Below are positions 19,976-28,288 of a DNA stretch of 64,000 nucleotides, piece by piece. Made by a program: the position numbers and the translations under genes. The notes beneath the pieces are model-generated. The model had not been told where the DNA came from, did no database searches, and saw only the letters and a list, made by a program, of their open reading frames with translations. The stretch's first letter is position 1; the number at the start of each line of letters is the position of its first letter. The stretch comes from Candidatus Latescibacterota bacterium (GTDB lineage Bacteria; Krumholzibacteriota; Krumholzibacteriia; WVZY01). The stretch spans positions 132,190-196,189 of the forward strand of contig WVZY01000057.1 of NCBI GenBank assembly GCA_011772205.1, read 5' to 3'.

Positions 19976-21528
19976 TGAAGCGACAGCTCTTAAAATGGCT
20001 CCCCCCGCTCCCGCTCATCTTCCCAGCGCTTCTCTCCGGTGCGTTGCTCTCTGCGGCGTTCCCGCCAATCGCGCTCGGAGGAATCACCTTCGTTGCGCTC
20101 ATCCCACTTATCGTTTCTCTTTACCGCAAACCGTGGACGCGTGGTGAAGCATTCCGGGCTGGATTCTTTTTCGGGCTGATCTTTTTTCTGCTGCTCCTGT
20201 GGTGGATCGTCAAGCTCCTGCCTTGGGCGAACGTCACCATTCCGTGGCTGATGACACCGGCTTTGATTCTTCTCGTTCTCTATCTCTCACTGTACCCAGC
20301 TTTTTTCTGTCTTTTGCTCGTCACAATCGGGCGCGGCAAACTGGCGCCGGGATTTTTCGTGGCACCCGCTCTTTGGACGCTTCTGGAAATCATCCGCTCG
20401 CGAGGAGAGCTGGGATTCCCCTGGGGGGTTATCGGGTACGGGTTGTCGCGGCATGTGAATTTCATCCAGGGAGCGGCGTGGGTGGGGCTGTTTGGCGTTG
20501 GGTTTATCGTGGTCCTCATCAGTTTTGTCTTTAGCGCGGCTTTCGTCCAGCGCGAGATCTTCAGGAAAATTGTTTTTCTGGCCGTTGGTGCCGGCATGGT
20601 CGCTGCCCTGGGCTTGCATGGATGGAAAGTGGCTTCCGGCTTTCCGTTGGAAGAGCACGCCAGGGAGGTCTCGGTAGCTGTGATCCAACCCAACGTGTCT
20701 CTCAAGATCAAGTGGGATCCGGCGTTTAGGGATTCCATTCTCTCGTTGACCGAGCGGCTGTCACGAATCGCAGCAAGCGCAAATCCAGGCCTTATCATAT
20801 TCCCCGAGACTTCAGCGCCTGTTTACATCCACTATGAAAAGGAAGTCAAAAAGCTGCTGACATCGCTTGTGCGTGACATCGACACACCGATATACATCGG
20901 CTTTCTCGATGCCCGGCGCGACTGGCCGGATAAGAATCTCAACATATACAATTCGTCCGGCCTTTTTACACCGGATGGGAGGCTCGAGAAGTACGACAAG
21001 ACGCACCTGCTTCCGTTTGGGGAAGCGCTGCCGTTGAGCTGGAAGTTCCGCTTCTTGAAAAAAATAAATTTTGGCCAGGCGAACTTCCAGCCAGGCAAAC
21101 TTGCTCCTCCAATCGATAGCAGGATCGGCTCTCTTGGCCCGCTCATCTGTTTCGAATCTATTTTTCCCGAACTCTCGCGCAGGTATGCCCGTGCCGGAGC
21201 GGATTTCTTCGTGAACATCACCAACGACGGCTGGTTCGGCAACTCACCCGGGCCGTATCAACACGCAGAGATGTGCGTCTTCAGGGCCGTAGAGAACCGG
21301 CGCTACCTGCTGCGGAGCGCAAACACTGGCGTATCGATGGTCGTAAATCCCGTGGGTTCGGTGGCAAGTGCTCTTGAAATGGATAGGGAAGGGATGCTCG
21401 TCGAAAAAGTGCGGGCTATCAAAGGTCAGACGTTCTACACACGCGCTGGAGAATGGCCTGTGGTGATTGCATCGCTTCTGCTTTTGATCATCGGAGCAGT
21501 CGTTGCGCGGCGGTCTTTGAAGACGTAG
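19975..21528 (+). CDS. lnt: apolipoprotein N-acyltransferase
   Basis: Multi-TM N-terminus plus nitrilase domain: LIIFPETSAP, KTHLLPFGE, GPLICFESIFPE, NITNDGWFG. Confidence 0.93.
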   Translation: MKRQLLKWLPPLPLIFPALLSGALLSAAFPPIALGGITFVALIPLIVSLYRKPWTRGEAFRAGFFFGLIFFLLLLWWIVKLLPWANVTIPWLMTPALILLVLYLSLYPAFFCLLLVTIGRGKLAPGFFVAPALWTLLEIIRSRGELGFPWGVIGYGLSRHVNFIQGAAWVGLFGVGFIVVLISFVFSAAFVQREIFRKIVFLAVGAGMVAALGLHGWKVASGFPLEEHAREVSVAVIQPNVSLKIKWDPAFRDSILSLTERLSRIAASANPGLIIFPETSAPVYIHYEKEVKKLLTSLVRDIDTPIYIGFLDARRDWPDKNLNIYNSSGLFTPDGRLEKYDKTHLLPFGEALPLSWKFRFLKKINFGQANFQPGKLAPPIDSRIGSLGPLICFESIFPELSRRYARAGADFFVNITNDGWFGNSPGPYQHAEMCVFRAVENRRYLLRSANTGVSMVVNPVGSVASALEMDREGMLVEKVRAIKGQTFYTRAGEWPVVIASLLLLIIGAVVARRSLKT

Positions 21529-21561
21529 TCTCGTATGCCGGAGAGAACAGCGACACGAACG

Positions 21562-21993
21562 TTAGTCCGTCTTATCCTCTCCAAACACTTCCCGAGCCTT
21601 ATCACGAAGGCGCTCTTTTGCGTTCTCCACTTGCTGCAGGGCTTCTCTCAGCTCTTCCAGTTCGGAAGATCTCACTTTCAACCCTTCGCGAATAAAGAGA
21701 GCGGCCGCTTCAGAACGGCTCTTTACATAACCCGTTTGCACCCAGTCATCGAGGGCTTTGCTGCTTTCCTCGTCGATTCGAACCATGACGGTTTGATCCC
21801 GGGCGGATTGCCCCATCTCCTGGACGCTCACTTTTAGATCAGGAGCAATGCACACCATTTTCTTGCAGAAACTCTCCATGTCGCCGGAGCAGAGCGTGTC
21901 CGGGTCAATGCCTTTCTCACGGAGTTTCTCGCTGATCATTTGCCAGATGCCCGAATGGGAAGCATGCGCATGATCATCAGGGCAGCACATCAT
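21562..21993 (-). CDS. ribbon-helix-helix-like protein with Cys/His-rich N-terminus
   Basis: MMCCPDDHAHASHSG...; TVMVRIDEESSKALDDWVQTGYVKSRSEAAALFIREGL resembles RHH. Confidence 0.6.
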   Translation of the reverse strand: MMCCPDDHAHASHSGIWQMISEKLREKGIDPDTLCSGDMESFCKKMVCIAPDLKVSVQEMGQSARDQTVMVRIDEESSKALDDWVQTGYVKSRSEAAALFIREGLKVRSSELEELREALQQVENAKERLRDKAREVFGEDKTD

Positions 21994-22005
21994 AGGTTTC
22001 CTCTC

Positions 22006-22064
22006 TTGTAATAGTTGTATATGTAACACGATTACATATTACAATGTGTTGCTTTCTCTGTCAA
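22006..22064 (-). promoter_or_regulatory. promoter overlapped by nested palindromic operator
   Basis: Minus strand TTGACA-N17-TAATAT; ATATGTAA-CACGA-TTACATAT and TTGTAATA...TATTACAA. Confidence 0.6.
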
Positions 22065-22210
22065 GCAAGAAATAATAGGCGCTTTCTTCAGGGTGGTGAT
22101 CCAGCTAATACCCAGCAATTAAATCGATTATGTGTCTTCAGAAGGGAGTATCTTAGCTAATGGGAGGGACGTTATTCGATTAAATATGTTGTGCTAAAGA
22201 GGAATTCTGG

Positions 22211-22770
22211 TCACCCAAAGGGATAGTTTATCTGCTTCTGGATCTGCTCGCGAATTGTACGCCCGGCAATCTCCTCGCAAAGAAAGAGGCCAAGATCGAT
22301 AGACGATGTCACACCACGGGCCGTGATGATGTTCCCGCTCCTGATGACCCGCTTGTCGCTGATTTTGGAGGCGTACTTTGGAGCAATTCGTAAGCATTCG
22401 GGTGTGTCGTGGCCGTTTTGCCATCCAGTAAACCGGCGGCGCCGAGAAGCAAGGATCCGGTGCATACAGAGGCGATCAAATCGCTGTCCTTCGCTGTGCG
22501 AATCCACTCCACGAACTTTCCGTCATGAATGAGATCACGAGTGGTGATACCACCGGGAACAACAACGACTTTAAAACCATTTAGTGGCCGCCCAATCGTT
22601 GTAGGGGTGTATTTTTGGCCCAGGGAATCGGTCACTTCTTTGGTTACAGCGCAGAGATCCCAGACGAGATCTGGAATGAACCCCATGGTCTTCAATCGAG
22701 CTACGGGCTCCAGCGCTCCAACGAAGTCCAGCGCTGTCATGCCATTGAATATGACGTAACCGAATTTCAC
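22211..22770 (-). pseudogene. DJ-1/PfpI family protein, apparently frameshifted
   Basis: Frame 1 MKFGYVIFNGMTALDFVGALEP...VCTGSLLLGAAGLLDGKTATTHPNAYELL continues in another frame as RIAPKYASKISDKRVIRSGNIITARGVTSSIDLGLFLCEEIAGRTIREQIQKQINYPFG. Confidence 0.8.
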
Positions 22771-23694: not shown

Positions 23695-24858
23695 CTAATC
23701 AATACCGAGTTTCTTGCGGATGTCTCTTGGGAGCCCGTCTTTGTGGACCATGATGAAAAGTGCTTTTGCGCGGATGTAGTTCTCGGAGAAATACTCGAGA
23801 CTCTTGTATGGGCCGTCCTCGGGGCCGACCGAATCCTTAGTGAAATAGAACTTCTTGCCTTTCTCGTCTTTAGCGATCCCCACTCCATGCACGAGATGCT
23901 GATCGAAGGTCCTCCAGTTCTCCAGCATCGTATCCCGTGCATCCTGGTCGATAACTCCTGCCTCCAATTCGGGCTCCAGCTCACAATAGCCTTTCTTGCT
24001 TTTGTAGAGCTCGGTCGTTGTGTGGAGATCGAAAACGAGCGAGAATCCGTTTTCAAGCGCGTGGTCGATGATTCCAATGAATTGATCGATTTTGACATTG
24101 TAGTAATTGCTATAATGGAGCCAATTGTCTTGAATGGTCAATTCTCCGGTTCCGTACAGCGGTAGAAACGAATACGATGTCACTTCGATATAGTCATCAT
24201 AGGGGAGCGCCAGGACCTCATCGGCGAATTCCTTTGGAGTCATCTTGCGGCCTTTGTATTGGATCGATTTCGGCACAGGCCCTGTATGATTGTCCAGAAT
24301 GTCTTTCATGTCGTCGAGCCATCTGCTGCTGAGTTTTCCATCGATCCATTTGCTGGACAGGTTTTCACCTTTACCGACTTCGACGACCGATTTCATTACG
24401 CCGTTTAGGAGCTTATACATCTCTCGATGGTTGTGCGCTGCATCTCCCGGCAGGAGGCCGCTGTAATCGGTGAGCCGGACGGTTCCATATTTTTTCATTA
24501 TGTGAATCACATCGTGTGGAAGCCCACCTTGCTTGAAGACGCCGTGACCGTGCATGCGGACGTTTCGCTGTGCTTTTTCCAAATAGGCGTGATAGGCAAT
24601 GTATATCTGTGACAGTTCGAGTTCGCCTCTGCCCAGGCGATAAGCTTCGGACTCGAGTAACGAGGTCGTGCTGAACGACCAGCATGTTCCCGTCTTGCCC
24701 TGGGATTTGTACGGAGTTCTCCATACTTCTTTGATGATCGTGAACTCTTTTTTCGGGGCCTGTTCTTGCTCCTGAACCGCAGTCCCGGCATCGGAGTAAG
24801 CAATCGAACAAAGCAATAGGCAGAGAGTAACAATAAGCTTCAAAACATCTTTTCGCAT
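23695..24858 (-). CDS. secreted bleomycin-hydrolase/aminopeptidase C-like cysteine peptidase (C1B-like)
   Basis: KSQGKTGTCWSFSTTSLLESEAYR; DQHLVHGVGIAKDEKGKKFYFTKDSVGP; signal peptide from ATG at 24858. Confidence 0.85.
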   Translation of the reverse strand: MRKDVLKLIVTLCLLLCSIAYSDAGTAVQEQEQAPKKEFTIIKEVWRTPYKSQGKTGTCWSFSTTSLLESEAYRLGRGELELSQIYIAYHAYLEKAQRNVRMHGHGVFKQGGLPHDVIHIMKKYGTVRLTDYSGLLPGDAAHNHREMYKLLNGVMKSVVEVGKGENLSSKWIDGKLSSRWLDDMKDILDNHTGPVPKSIQYKGRKMTPKEFADEVLALPYDDYIEVTSYSFLPLYGTGELTIQDNWLHYSNYYNVKIDQFIGIIDHALENGFSLVFDLHTTTELYKSKKGYCELEPELEAGVIDQDARDTMLENWRTFDQHLVHGVGIAKDEKGKKFYFTKDSVGPEDGPYKSLEYFSENYIRAKALFIMVHKDGLPRDIRKKLGID

Positions 24859-25006
24859 ATCCAATCCCTTCTTTTGGAACAATTTGTTTTTATCAACACT
24901 CAAAAATCAACGGGAGTCGTGAGCGAGGCCCTGGAAGTATCCGGCATGGATCAGAGTCCATCAGGTTTGATCTTGTGGGCTTGCTGTCAATCCCTTTGTT
25001 CGCCCG

Positions 25007-26314
25007 CTAAAACTTCATGCCGATGTCGAATTCGAACCGGCCGGGATCATCCAGCCGCCAGCCGTAATCGAAGCGCAGCCCGCTTGCACCTTTGGCGAGC
25101 AGGATCACGCCCGCACCGAAAGTCCCGTGAAAATTCCGTGTGGAGAGGTCCTCGTTATCCTCCCATGCAACAGCGGCATCGGCGAAAGCATGGAATGCTA
25201 TACCAATGAGGACATCTTCGATGGGTAAATTCCTGGAGAAATTCAGCGGTAACCGTCCCTCGATACCGGAAACGATCGATCGGGTCCCATGGAATGATCC
25301 GTAGTCGTACCCCCTCAGCGTTTGCGCCCCGCCGATATGCTCCCGCCGGTAGGCAGGCATCCGGTCCCCGTCACGATATCTGAGCCGCCCGTGACCGGCG
25401 ATGACACCCCTGCCTGCCAGGCTCTTGAAAAGGCGAAGGTCCGCTGTCCCTTCATGGATCGAGAATGTTTCACTCCCCGGCCCTACCTCTTCGCCTTTGG
25501 CTCTGAAGTACACGCCGTTCCAAGGATATGTGGGACTGTCTCTCGAATCATGGACAAAGGATATTGCCACCGTCGGGTAGGTGTCCCTTTCGGGTTCCAG
25601 CGTGACTCCGGGAGTGGAGCTTCTCACCGATTCAATACCCCCGGATAGTGTAATGCGAGTCCGTGAACCGAGCTTCCGGAAGATCCTCAGCTTTGCATGA
25701 AGCCGCTCAATCGATGCATCCTCGAGGGCCTTCCCGAGGTCGCCGTATACGTACTTGTATTCTTCGTAAGTGAGTCGTACTCCCACACCCACACGCGGTC
25801 CTGTCCCTATCCACGGATTTTCCCAAGAGGCGGTAACAATCGTGTTCCCTCTCAGCAGGAATGATCCTGAAAGCCTCTCGCTGCGCCCTCGAAAATTGAG
25901 TTCCCAAAGCTCCAATCCAAGGGAGATCTTATTTTGGTATCCCCGGCGGAAGAGAGGTCTTCCGTTGAATGTGGACTTCTCCGTGATAATGATGGAAAGC
26001 ACGATAGAAGAATCCCTCGGACTGTACGCTGCACGTACTTCCGAATAATCGACTCCAGGGATCTTTTGGATACGGCTCCGGGCTTCGTCGAGCTCCTCCT
26101 CATCGAACAGGTCCCCCCTCCGAAATGGAATTTCACGCCGCAGAATATGGGTTCGGATCTTTTCGTTTCCATATACGCGGATCTGCCCGACCCGAAAGGG
26201 GGGCGTTTCGCTTGTTTCCGGCAACGCTGGAGTCCAAGCGATCAAGAGCATACCGAATATGAGTATGGTTCGGATCACGCGTCGCCTGGTTTTTTTGGCT
26301 ATATGCGGATGCAT
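25007..26314 (-). CDS. Omp85/BamA-TamA superfamily outer membrane protein with one POTRA-like domain
   Basis: VGQIRVYGNEKIRTHILRREIPFRRGDLFDEEELDEARSRI; RGYDYGSFHG; terminal Phe. Confidence 0.8.
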   Translation of the reverse strand: MHPHIAKKTRRRVIRTILIFGMLLIAWTPALPETSETPPFRVGQIRVYGNEKIRTHILRREIPFRRGDLFDEEELDEARSRIQKIPGVDYSEVRAAYSPRDSSIVLSIIITEKSTFNGRPLFRRGYQNKISLGLELWELNFRGRSERLSGSFLLRGNTIVTASWENPWIGTGPRVGVGVRLTYEEYKYVYGDLGKALEDASIERLHAKLRIFRKLGSRTRITLSGGIESVRSSTPGVTLEPERDTYPTVAISFVHDSRDSPTYPWNGVYFRAKGEEVGPGSETFSIHEGTADLRLFKSLAGRGVIAGHGRLRYRDGDRMPAYRREHIGGAQTLRGYDYGSFHGTRSIVSGIEGRLPLNFSRNLPIEDVLIGIAFHAFADAAVAWEDNEDLSTRNFHGTFGAGVILLAKGASGLRFDYGWRLDDPGRFEFDIGMKF

Positions 26315-27079: not shown

Positions 27080-28288
27080 ATGACGTCGAATCAGATGGAA
27101 GAAAAGTACTATCTGGATGATGCCTACACAACGGCGTTTCGGGCCAAGGTGCTGTCCTGTGAAAAGCTTCTCAACGGACATTTTGCCGTATTACTGGATA
27201 AGACGTATTTCTTTCCCGAATCCGGTGGGCAGCTTTCGGATAAGGGCAAAATCCTGAATGTGGATGTCGTGAATGTTCGCGAAGACGATGCGGGGAGAGT
27301 CGTTCACGAGGTGACCGCCCAGGTGGATGGTGAAGTGAGCTGCGACGTCGACTGGGAGGCGCGTTTCGATCACATGCAGCAACACACAGGTCAACACGTG
27401 CTTACCCGTGCTTTTATCGAGATTGCCGGGATGCCGACAGTCTCGTTTCATATGGGGGATGAGACCTGCACGATTGATCTCGAGGGGAAAGGGCTGGGTG
27501 ACCAGACTATCAACGCCGCCGAGGACCTTGCAAACGCCATTATCTGGGGAAACAGGGAGGTTAGTGCGAGAACAGTTCCCCTTTCTCGGCTGAAGGAAGA
27601 TGCGCTCAGGAGATCGCTTCCGGAGGGCGTTACTGATGCCCGCGTCGTGGAGATCGAGAATTTCGACGCCGTTGCATGCTGCGGGACTCATGTGAAGAGG
27701 ACGGGTGAGCTGGGCATTATTAAAGTGCTCAAGCACGAAAAGGTCAAAGGCAGCGTTCGCGTCCATTTCGTAGCCGGACGGCGGGCTCTCTTGGACTATC
27801 GAGACAAACACGGCGTGGTGAAATCGCTTGCCAACAGGTTTACAACGTCGGTCGACGGGATCCTGGATAAAACTGAAAAGCTCTCGAAAGATGCTCAGCT
27901 TTTGAGGAAGGAACTCCAGAAAAGCATCAAAAGACTTGCTGCCTTCGACAAACAGCGACTTCTCGCGGAGGCGTCGACCCACAAGGGCAGGCGTTTCATC
28001 GTGCACCTGTGTGAAGCGGGCGACGAAAGTTATCTCAATCTCCTTGCCTCGGCATGCAAGAACGAGGCGGGCACGATCGTTTTCCTGGGTTCGAAGGACG
28101 GGCATGTCGTCTGCGCCGCATCCCCCGAGGTCTCCATTGATCTTGCAACTCATGTCGTCGGCGCCGCGAAAGAAGCAGGTGGTGGGGGCGGAGGAAAGGG
28201 AGACTTCGCCAGGGTGACTCTCCCAGACTCCGTTGATGTCAGAGAATTTCTCGAAAAGGTATCCAGCTATGTCAAGAACGCTGTTTAA
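27080..28288 (+). CDS. alanyl-tRNA editing protein (AlaX-like, with DHHA1 domain)
   Basis: FFPESGGQLSDKG; HMQQHTGQHVL; CCGTHVKRTGELG; C-terminal AGGGGGGKGDFA. Confidence 0.88.
   Translation: MTSNQMEEKYYLDDAYTTAFRAKVLSCEKLLNGHFAVLLDKTYFFPESGGQLSDKGKILNVDVVNVREDDAGRVVHEVTAQVDGEVSCDVDWEARFDHMQQHTGQHVLTRAFIEIAGMPTVSFHMGDETCTIDLEGKGLGDQTINAAEDLANAIIWGNREVSARTVPLSRLKEDALRRSLPEGVTDARVVEIENFDAVACCGTHVKRTGELGIIKVLKHEKVKGSVRVHFVAGRRALLDYRDKHGVVKSLANRFTTSVDGILDKTEKLSKDAQLLRKELQKSIKRLAAFDKQRLLAEASTHKGRRFIVHLCEAGDESYLNLLASACKNEAGTIVFLGSKDGHVVCAASPEVSIDLATHVVGAAKEAGGGGGGKGDFARVTLPDSVDVREFLEKVSSYVKNAV

Follow-up and report, generated by a model that had tools for sequence, protein, structure and literature searches.

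A predicted ribbon-helix-helix protein and a conserved GTAAT-N3-ATTAC operator over its own promoter

Based on comparison of the protein and its upstream DNA with those of relatives in several phyla, a 143-aa protein encoded in the window (the whole 64-kb stretch of DNA analysed here) is very probably a dimeric ribbon-helix-helix (RHH)-type protein that holds down its own transcription by binding GTAAT half-sites over its promoter. In the proposed mechanism, the dimer would bind the half-sites mainly as GTAAT-N3-ATTAC, and the bound operator, which overlaps the -10 region and the start of the promoter, would bring about negative autoregulation; dimerisation, binding and repression are proposed because of the RHH family membership and the overlap of operator and promoter. 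Tuning of oligomerisation or sensing of a signal, perhaps via Cys48, is the probable role of the N-terminal domain and the coiled coil, and in some relatives the operator would also govern a coupled protease or membrane-protein gene.

The gene lies at 21562-21993 on the minus strand, as indicated by the open reading frame, its ribosome-binding site and the relatives in several phyla. Its best start is the ATG at 21993 (MMCC...), which is preceded by the ribosome-binding site AGAGAGG (22000-22006, minus), and an in-frame GTG is also present upstream at 22029. The promoter proposed in the first-pass annotation is confirmed, since the -35 element TTGACA (22064-22059, minus) and the -10 element TAATAT (22041-22036, minus) were read exactly with a spacer of 17 nt, and this pair was the sole sigma-70-type match in a promoter scan of 21400-22300 (10/12; shuffles 0.6). 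The nested palindrome described over this promoter was likewise found with all arms exact, namely ATATGTAA-CACGA-TTACATAT at 22019-22039 and the outer arms TTGTAATA at 22006-22013 and TATTACAA at 22037-22044. With up to three mismatches allowed, the 21-bp palindrome occurs once in the 64 kb against 0.04 expected, and is thus beyond chance expectation within the window. Its centre is the operator core GTAATCGTGTTAC (22023-22035, minus), which differs by one mismatch from GTAAT-N3-ATTAC and is conserved upstream of relatives. An extra GTAAT half-site at 22038-22042 on the minus strand forms a direct repeat with the core at a 7-bp period (22042-22038 and 22035-22031), and a further half-site belonging to an outer arm was read on the plus strand at 22008-22012; the operator overlaps the -10 element and the likely transcription start. 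Elsewhere in the window, a DJ-1/PfpI gene is seemingly split by a frameshift at 22211-22770 (minus), with its N-terminal part in the ORF 22309-22770 and its C-terminal part in the ORF 22211-22507, and represents either a decayed gene or an assembly error. A C1-like peptidase (23695-24903, minus), a short Omp85 protein with one POTRA match (25007-26314, minus) and a stand-alone alanyl-tRNA editing-like protein with tRNA_SAD and DHHA1 domains (27080-28288) were also observed.

The operator is conserved far beyond the window. Upstream of 50 relatives, GTAAT-N3-ATTAC was found exactly in 16 and with at most one mismatch in 31, compared with means of 0.03 and 0.6, respectively, and a maximum of 4 for 59 permuted half-site controls. 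After clustering at 65% identity, 13 of 25 clusters have an exact site and 17 a site within one mismatch. Counted with L072 left out and with the upstream region widened for two operons, the close relatives have exact sites in 13/22 and sites within one mismatch in 20/22, and the distant relatives in 4/27 and 13/27, so that 14 of these 27 have no site within one mismatch; L072 itself has an exact site outside the region read in the 50-relative count. With one exception, the spacer measures 3 bp. A 7-bp period of direct GTAAT repeats was found in 9 of the 50 relatives, against 0-2 for other spacings, and L004, one of the two close relatives with no site within one mismatch, repeats GTAAT every 7 bp instead. 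Even where protein identity has dropped to 20-30% and the flanking DNA is unconserved, the operator still accompanies the gene or its operon from phylum to phylum. Furthermore, operons that carry the RHH gene in second place have the operator at their head: in L037 and L039, the site, a membrane-protein gene and the RHH gene follow one another on one contig, and L011 is probably arranged in the same way, since its genome has an exact site at the end of a different contig, the last bases of which resemble the opening bases of the L011 contig. Upstream of 5926, L010 has a tandem of two exact operators separated by 20 bp. Autoregulation through the palindrome, as the first-pass annotation had suggested, is therefore well supported by cross-phyla operator conservation together with the RHH matches, while the repressing direction of that control is our inference.

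The protein consists of a variable N-terminal domain (residues 1-66; 21796-21993, minus), an RHH segment (residues 67-107; 21673-21795, minus; QTVMVRIDEES...SRSEAAALFIREGL) and a long C-terminal helix (residues 109-138; 21580-21669, minus), an order kept in the alignments; the last part is one long helix in the structure model and a probable coiled coil. In the RHH segment, the expected elements are a strand at residues 68-73 and helices at 75-87 and 93-103, and the structure model does place helices in this segment. The resemblance to an RHH domain noted in the first-pass annotation is supported through the relatives rather than through the window protein alone, which passes no Pfam family threshold, RHH included, and gives only a partial AbmR match (29 bits, RHH part) and NikR traces in NCBIfam. 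Among 25 family members, PF01402 (RHH_1) is matched by 6 (best E 6e-5), the RHH part of AbmR by 20 (best E 3e-7) and the RHH region of NikR by 5, and a PHROGs repressor model matches residues 67-106 of the window protein at 2e-4. In hhalign, the strand and helices of NikR align in register with the segment, residues 68, 70 and 72 corresponding to NikR positions 3, 5 and 7, which are DNA-contacting strand positions. CopG alone failed to align, as did an unrelated control. The single-chain structure model is mediocre (pLDDT 70, pTM 0.32; no strand assigned), Foldseek against the PDB gave weak, non-significant matches (E > 1) that include ParD, MazE-mt1 and NikR, and no RHH match appeared in a PDB profile search. 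For the RHH superfamily (CopG/MetJ/Arc), a strand-helix-helix segment that matches its profiles was found through the relatives, and a specific operator with repeated half-sites at the level of the motif, its binding being predicted; the window protein is most likely an RHH-type DNA-binding protein. Arg72 of the strand is nearly invariant across relatives, and residue 70 is mostly Met with Thr or Ser in some distant relatives; because some of these still have GTAAT sites, Arg72 may be the chief determinant. No Pfam, NCBIfam or PHROGs model describes this family as a family, and a literature search returned no paper with GTAAT-N3-ATTAC as spelled. An orphan family that is nameless in these libraries, with a deeply conserved operator, gains a defined DNA target by comparison alone, which makes its function directly testable.

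The relatives are patchily distributed over Gemmatimonadota, Planctomycetota, Acidobacteriota, Myxococcota/Deltaproteobacteria, a Bacteroidetes MAG and the window's own phylum, in which 2 of 80 genomes carry one. Scanning the genomes of 84,980 species yielded 13 loci, in Phycisphaerales, Planctomycetota, Bacteroidetes, Gemmatimonadota, Thermoanaerobaculia, Deltaproteobacteria and Myxococcales MAGs, among them L005, the own-phylum relative already found. Profile searches, whose counts include genomes already known from that scan, found members in 13/395 genomes of Gemmatimonadota, 4/392 of Planctomycetota, 29/396 of Acidobacteriota (mostly distant) and 2/379 of Myxococcota. Since the closest relative (71% identity in the best segment) belongs to another phylum, in Phycisphaerales, horizontal transfer of the family is likely, judged by identity rather than by a tree. 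No relatives were found on the plasmids and phages searched, and no gene neighbourhood is conserved around the relatives except among sister species.

Scans of 14 genomes with YGTAATNNNATTACR gave 0-2 places per genome, mostly the gene's own promoter, and 0 for the reversed control; the single site in most genomes makes a dedicated autoregulator, probably a repressor, the best reading. The regulon looked for in the window's own genome did not emerge, as the scan for the 21-bp pattern returned one good site, that of the gene itself. With one mismatch allowed, TGTAATNNNATTACA has three sites in this genome, of which one belongs to the gene itself and another falls within a coding sequence. Beyond the gene's own site, an aminotransferase ORF has GTAATGCAATTAC upstream of it at C9:112938, a membrane-protein gene has TGTAATGCGCTTACA upstream at C74:47226, and two further sites fall inside ORFs. 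These numbers are near chance for such short patterns, and therefore no targets are claimed. A symmetrical site on contig C62 of genome G083 lies inside a GH97 gene and was taken as chance. In the myxococcal genome G091, a gene for a retropepsin-like protease (PF13650, 5e-12) has a second exact site 16 bp ahead of its ATG, and this protein family, with pairwise identities of 32-33%, is also encoded directly after the RHH gene in L004 (Planctomycetota) and L040/L042 (Gemmatimonadota). The genes that follow the RHH gene encode S41 or PDZ proteins in L046, L038, L057 (gap of 129 bp) and L065, and small membrane proteins in L007, L036, L035 and L041. In some relatives, the same operator appears also to control a coupled gene for a retropepsin-like or S41 protease or a small membrane protein, and the operator can serve as a tag, a second copy flagging a candidate regulated gene such as the myxococcal protease gene. 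As separate observations, retropepsin-like aspartyl proteases recur beside the family or its operator in three phyla (L028 1501-1515; L004 6416-7321; L109 1789-2322; L110 1808-2341), and the small membrane proteins of L007 and L036 are related, with Cys-rich N-termini (MSCNCNCNCSHC, MPRNCCNSTCQC) and weak similarity to MerC.

The N-terminal domain contains the residues on which the first-pass annotation had based metal or redox sensing (Cys 3, 4, 35, 43 and 48; His 8, 10 and 13). A metal sensor following the logic of NikR, in which the Cys2/His3 set and the further Cys would bind metal and switch DNA binding, could draw on these five Cys and three His preceding the RHH segment, on two relatives in which the gene after the RHH gene encodes a Cys-rich membrane protein weakly similar to MerC, and on the operator tentatively linked to L011, which adjoins merT. 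However, counterparts of Cys3, Cys4 and the three His are absent in nearly all relatives (L005 carries a CC, but elsewhere in the alignment), the domain lacks Cys altogether in two close relatives and in most of the distant ones, and neither a NikR-type C-terminal metal domain nor metal genes next to the window gene were found. The metal reading loses its main support because these residues are not shared, and it is very unlikely. Of the cluster, only Cys48 (codon 21850-21852, minus) is widely kept, in 20/22 close relatives, with at least two N-domain Cys in 16/22. A thiol or redox switch formed by Cys48 together with another Cys close to it, within residues 35-43, a possible addition to autoregulation rather than an exclusive alternative, would account for this pattern, but Cys48 is missing in L013/L014 and most distant relatives, several of which keep the same operator, the second Cys varies in position, and a buried structural Cys would be conserved likewise; such a switch is unlikely, although worth considering. 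A wider reading, in which a new RHH autoregulator family spread horizontally over phyla would sense thiol-reactive stress via Cys48 and control envelope proteins including retropepsin-like and S41 proteases through GTAAT-N3-ATTAC, is speculative and decidedly unlikely.

Two other explanations concern the partner of the protein and of the palindrome. RHH antitoxins typically autoregulate through palindromes, and in some relatives the RHH gene overlaps the downstream gene by 4 bp, as would suit a toxin-antitoxin pair; against this, the window gene stands alone, with no adjacent co-transcribed toxin and with a convergent lnt as the next gene downstream, the relatives' partner genes encode non-homologous products, either proteases or membrane proteins, and PADLOC gave no match, which leaves an antitoxin highly improbable. 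The palindrome could instead be a chance feature or the site of another regulator, the protein not being its ligand, and, genome-wide, the relaxed 21-bp pattern indeed does not outnumber its reversed control (7 versus 9). The tracking of the motif with the gene or operon across phyla, as described above, argues against this possibility, for which we see very little room. A dedicated RHH autoregulator thus remains the preferred reading.

Among known systems, the plasmid omega repressor (pSM19035) binds as RHH dimers to half-sites placed every 7 bp in direct or inverted orientation. The likeness to it, drawn at the RHH level, lies in half-sites at 7-bp repeats, whereas the window half-site is GTAAT, a 3-bp spacer separates the main inverted pair and no partition genes lie near the window gene; work on the heptad repeats is cited in the references of PMC5016525. 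The antitoxins ParD and MazE-mt1 resemble the window protein in weak, non-significant Foldseek matches over the RHH segment, while the latter has no toxin partner and possesses an extra N-terminal domain and a long coiled coil. NikR shares the RHH strand and helices in register, but its RHH domain starts the protein, whereas that of the window protein follows another domain and is not joined to a C-terminal metal-binding domain; the NikR matches cover the RHH part only, the window protein scoring 13 bits against a cut-off of 175. AbmR (Rv1265) of Mycobacterium tuberculosis, a reported DNA-binding protein (PMC8628891; NCBIfam NF058631), has an RHH-like C-terminal part whose profile the family matches. 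The window protein covers positions 103-162 of the 167 in this profile with 29.4 bits against a curated cut-off of 160, short of a full-length match, and the likeness is drawn from the RHH-part profile alone, ATP binding and an Mcr11-like RNA belonging to the AbmR side.
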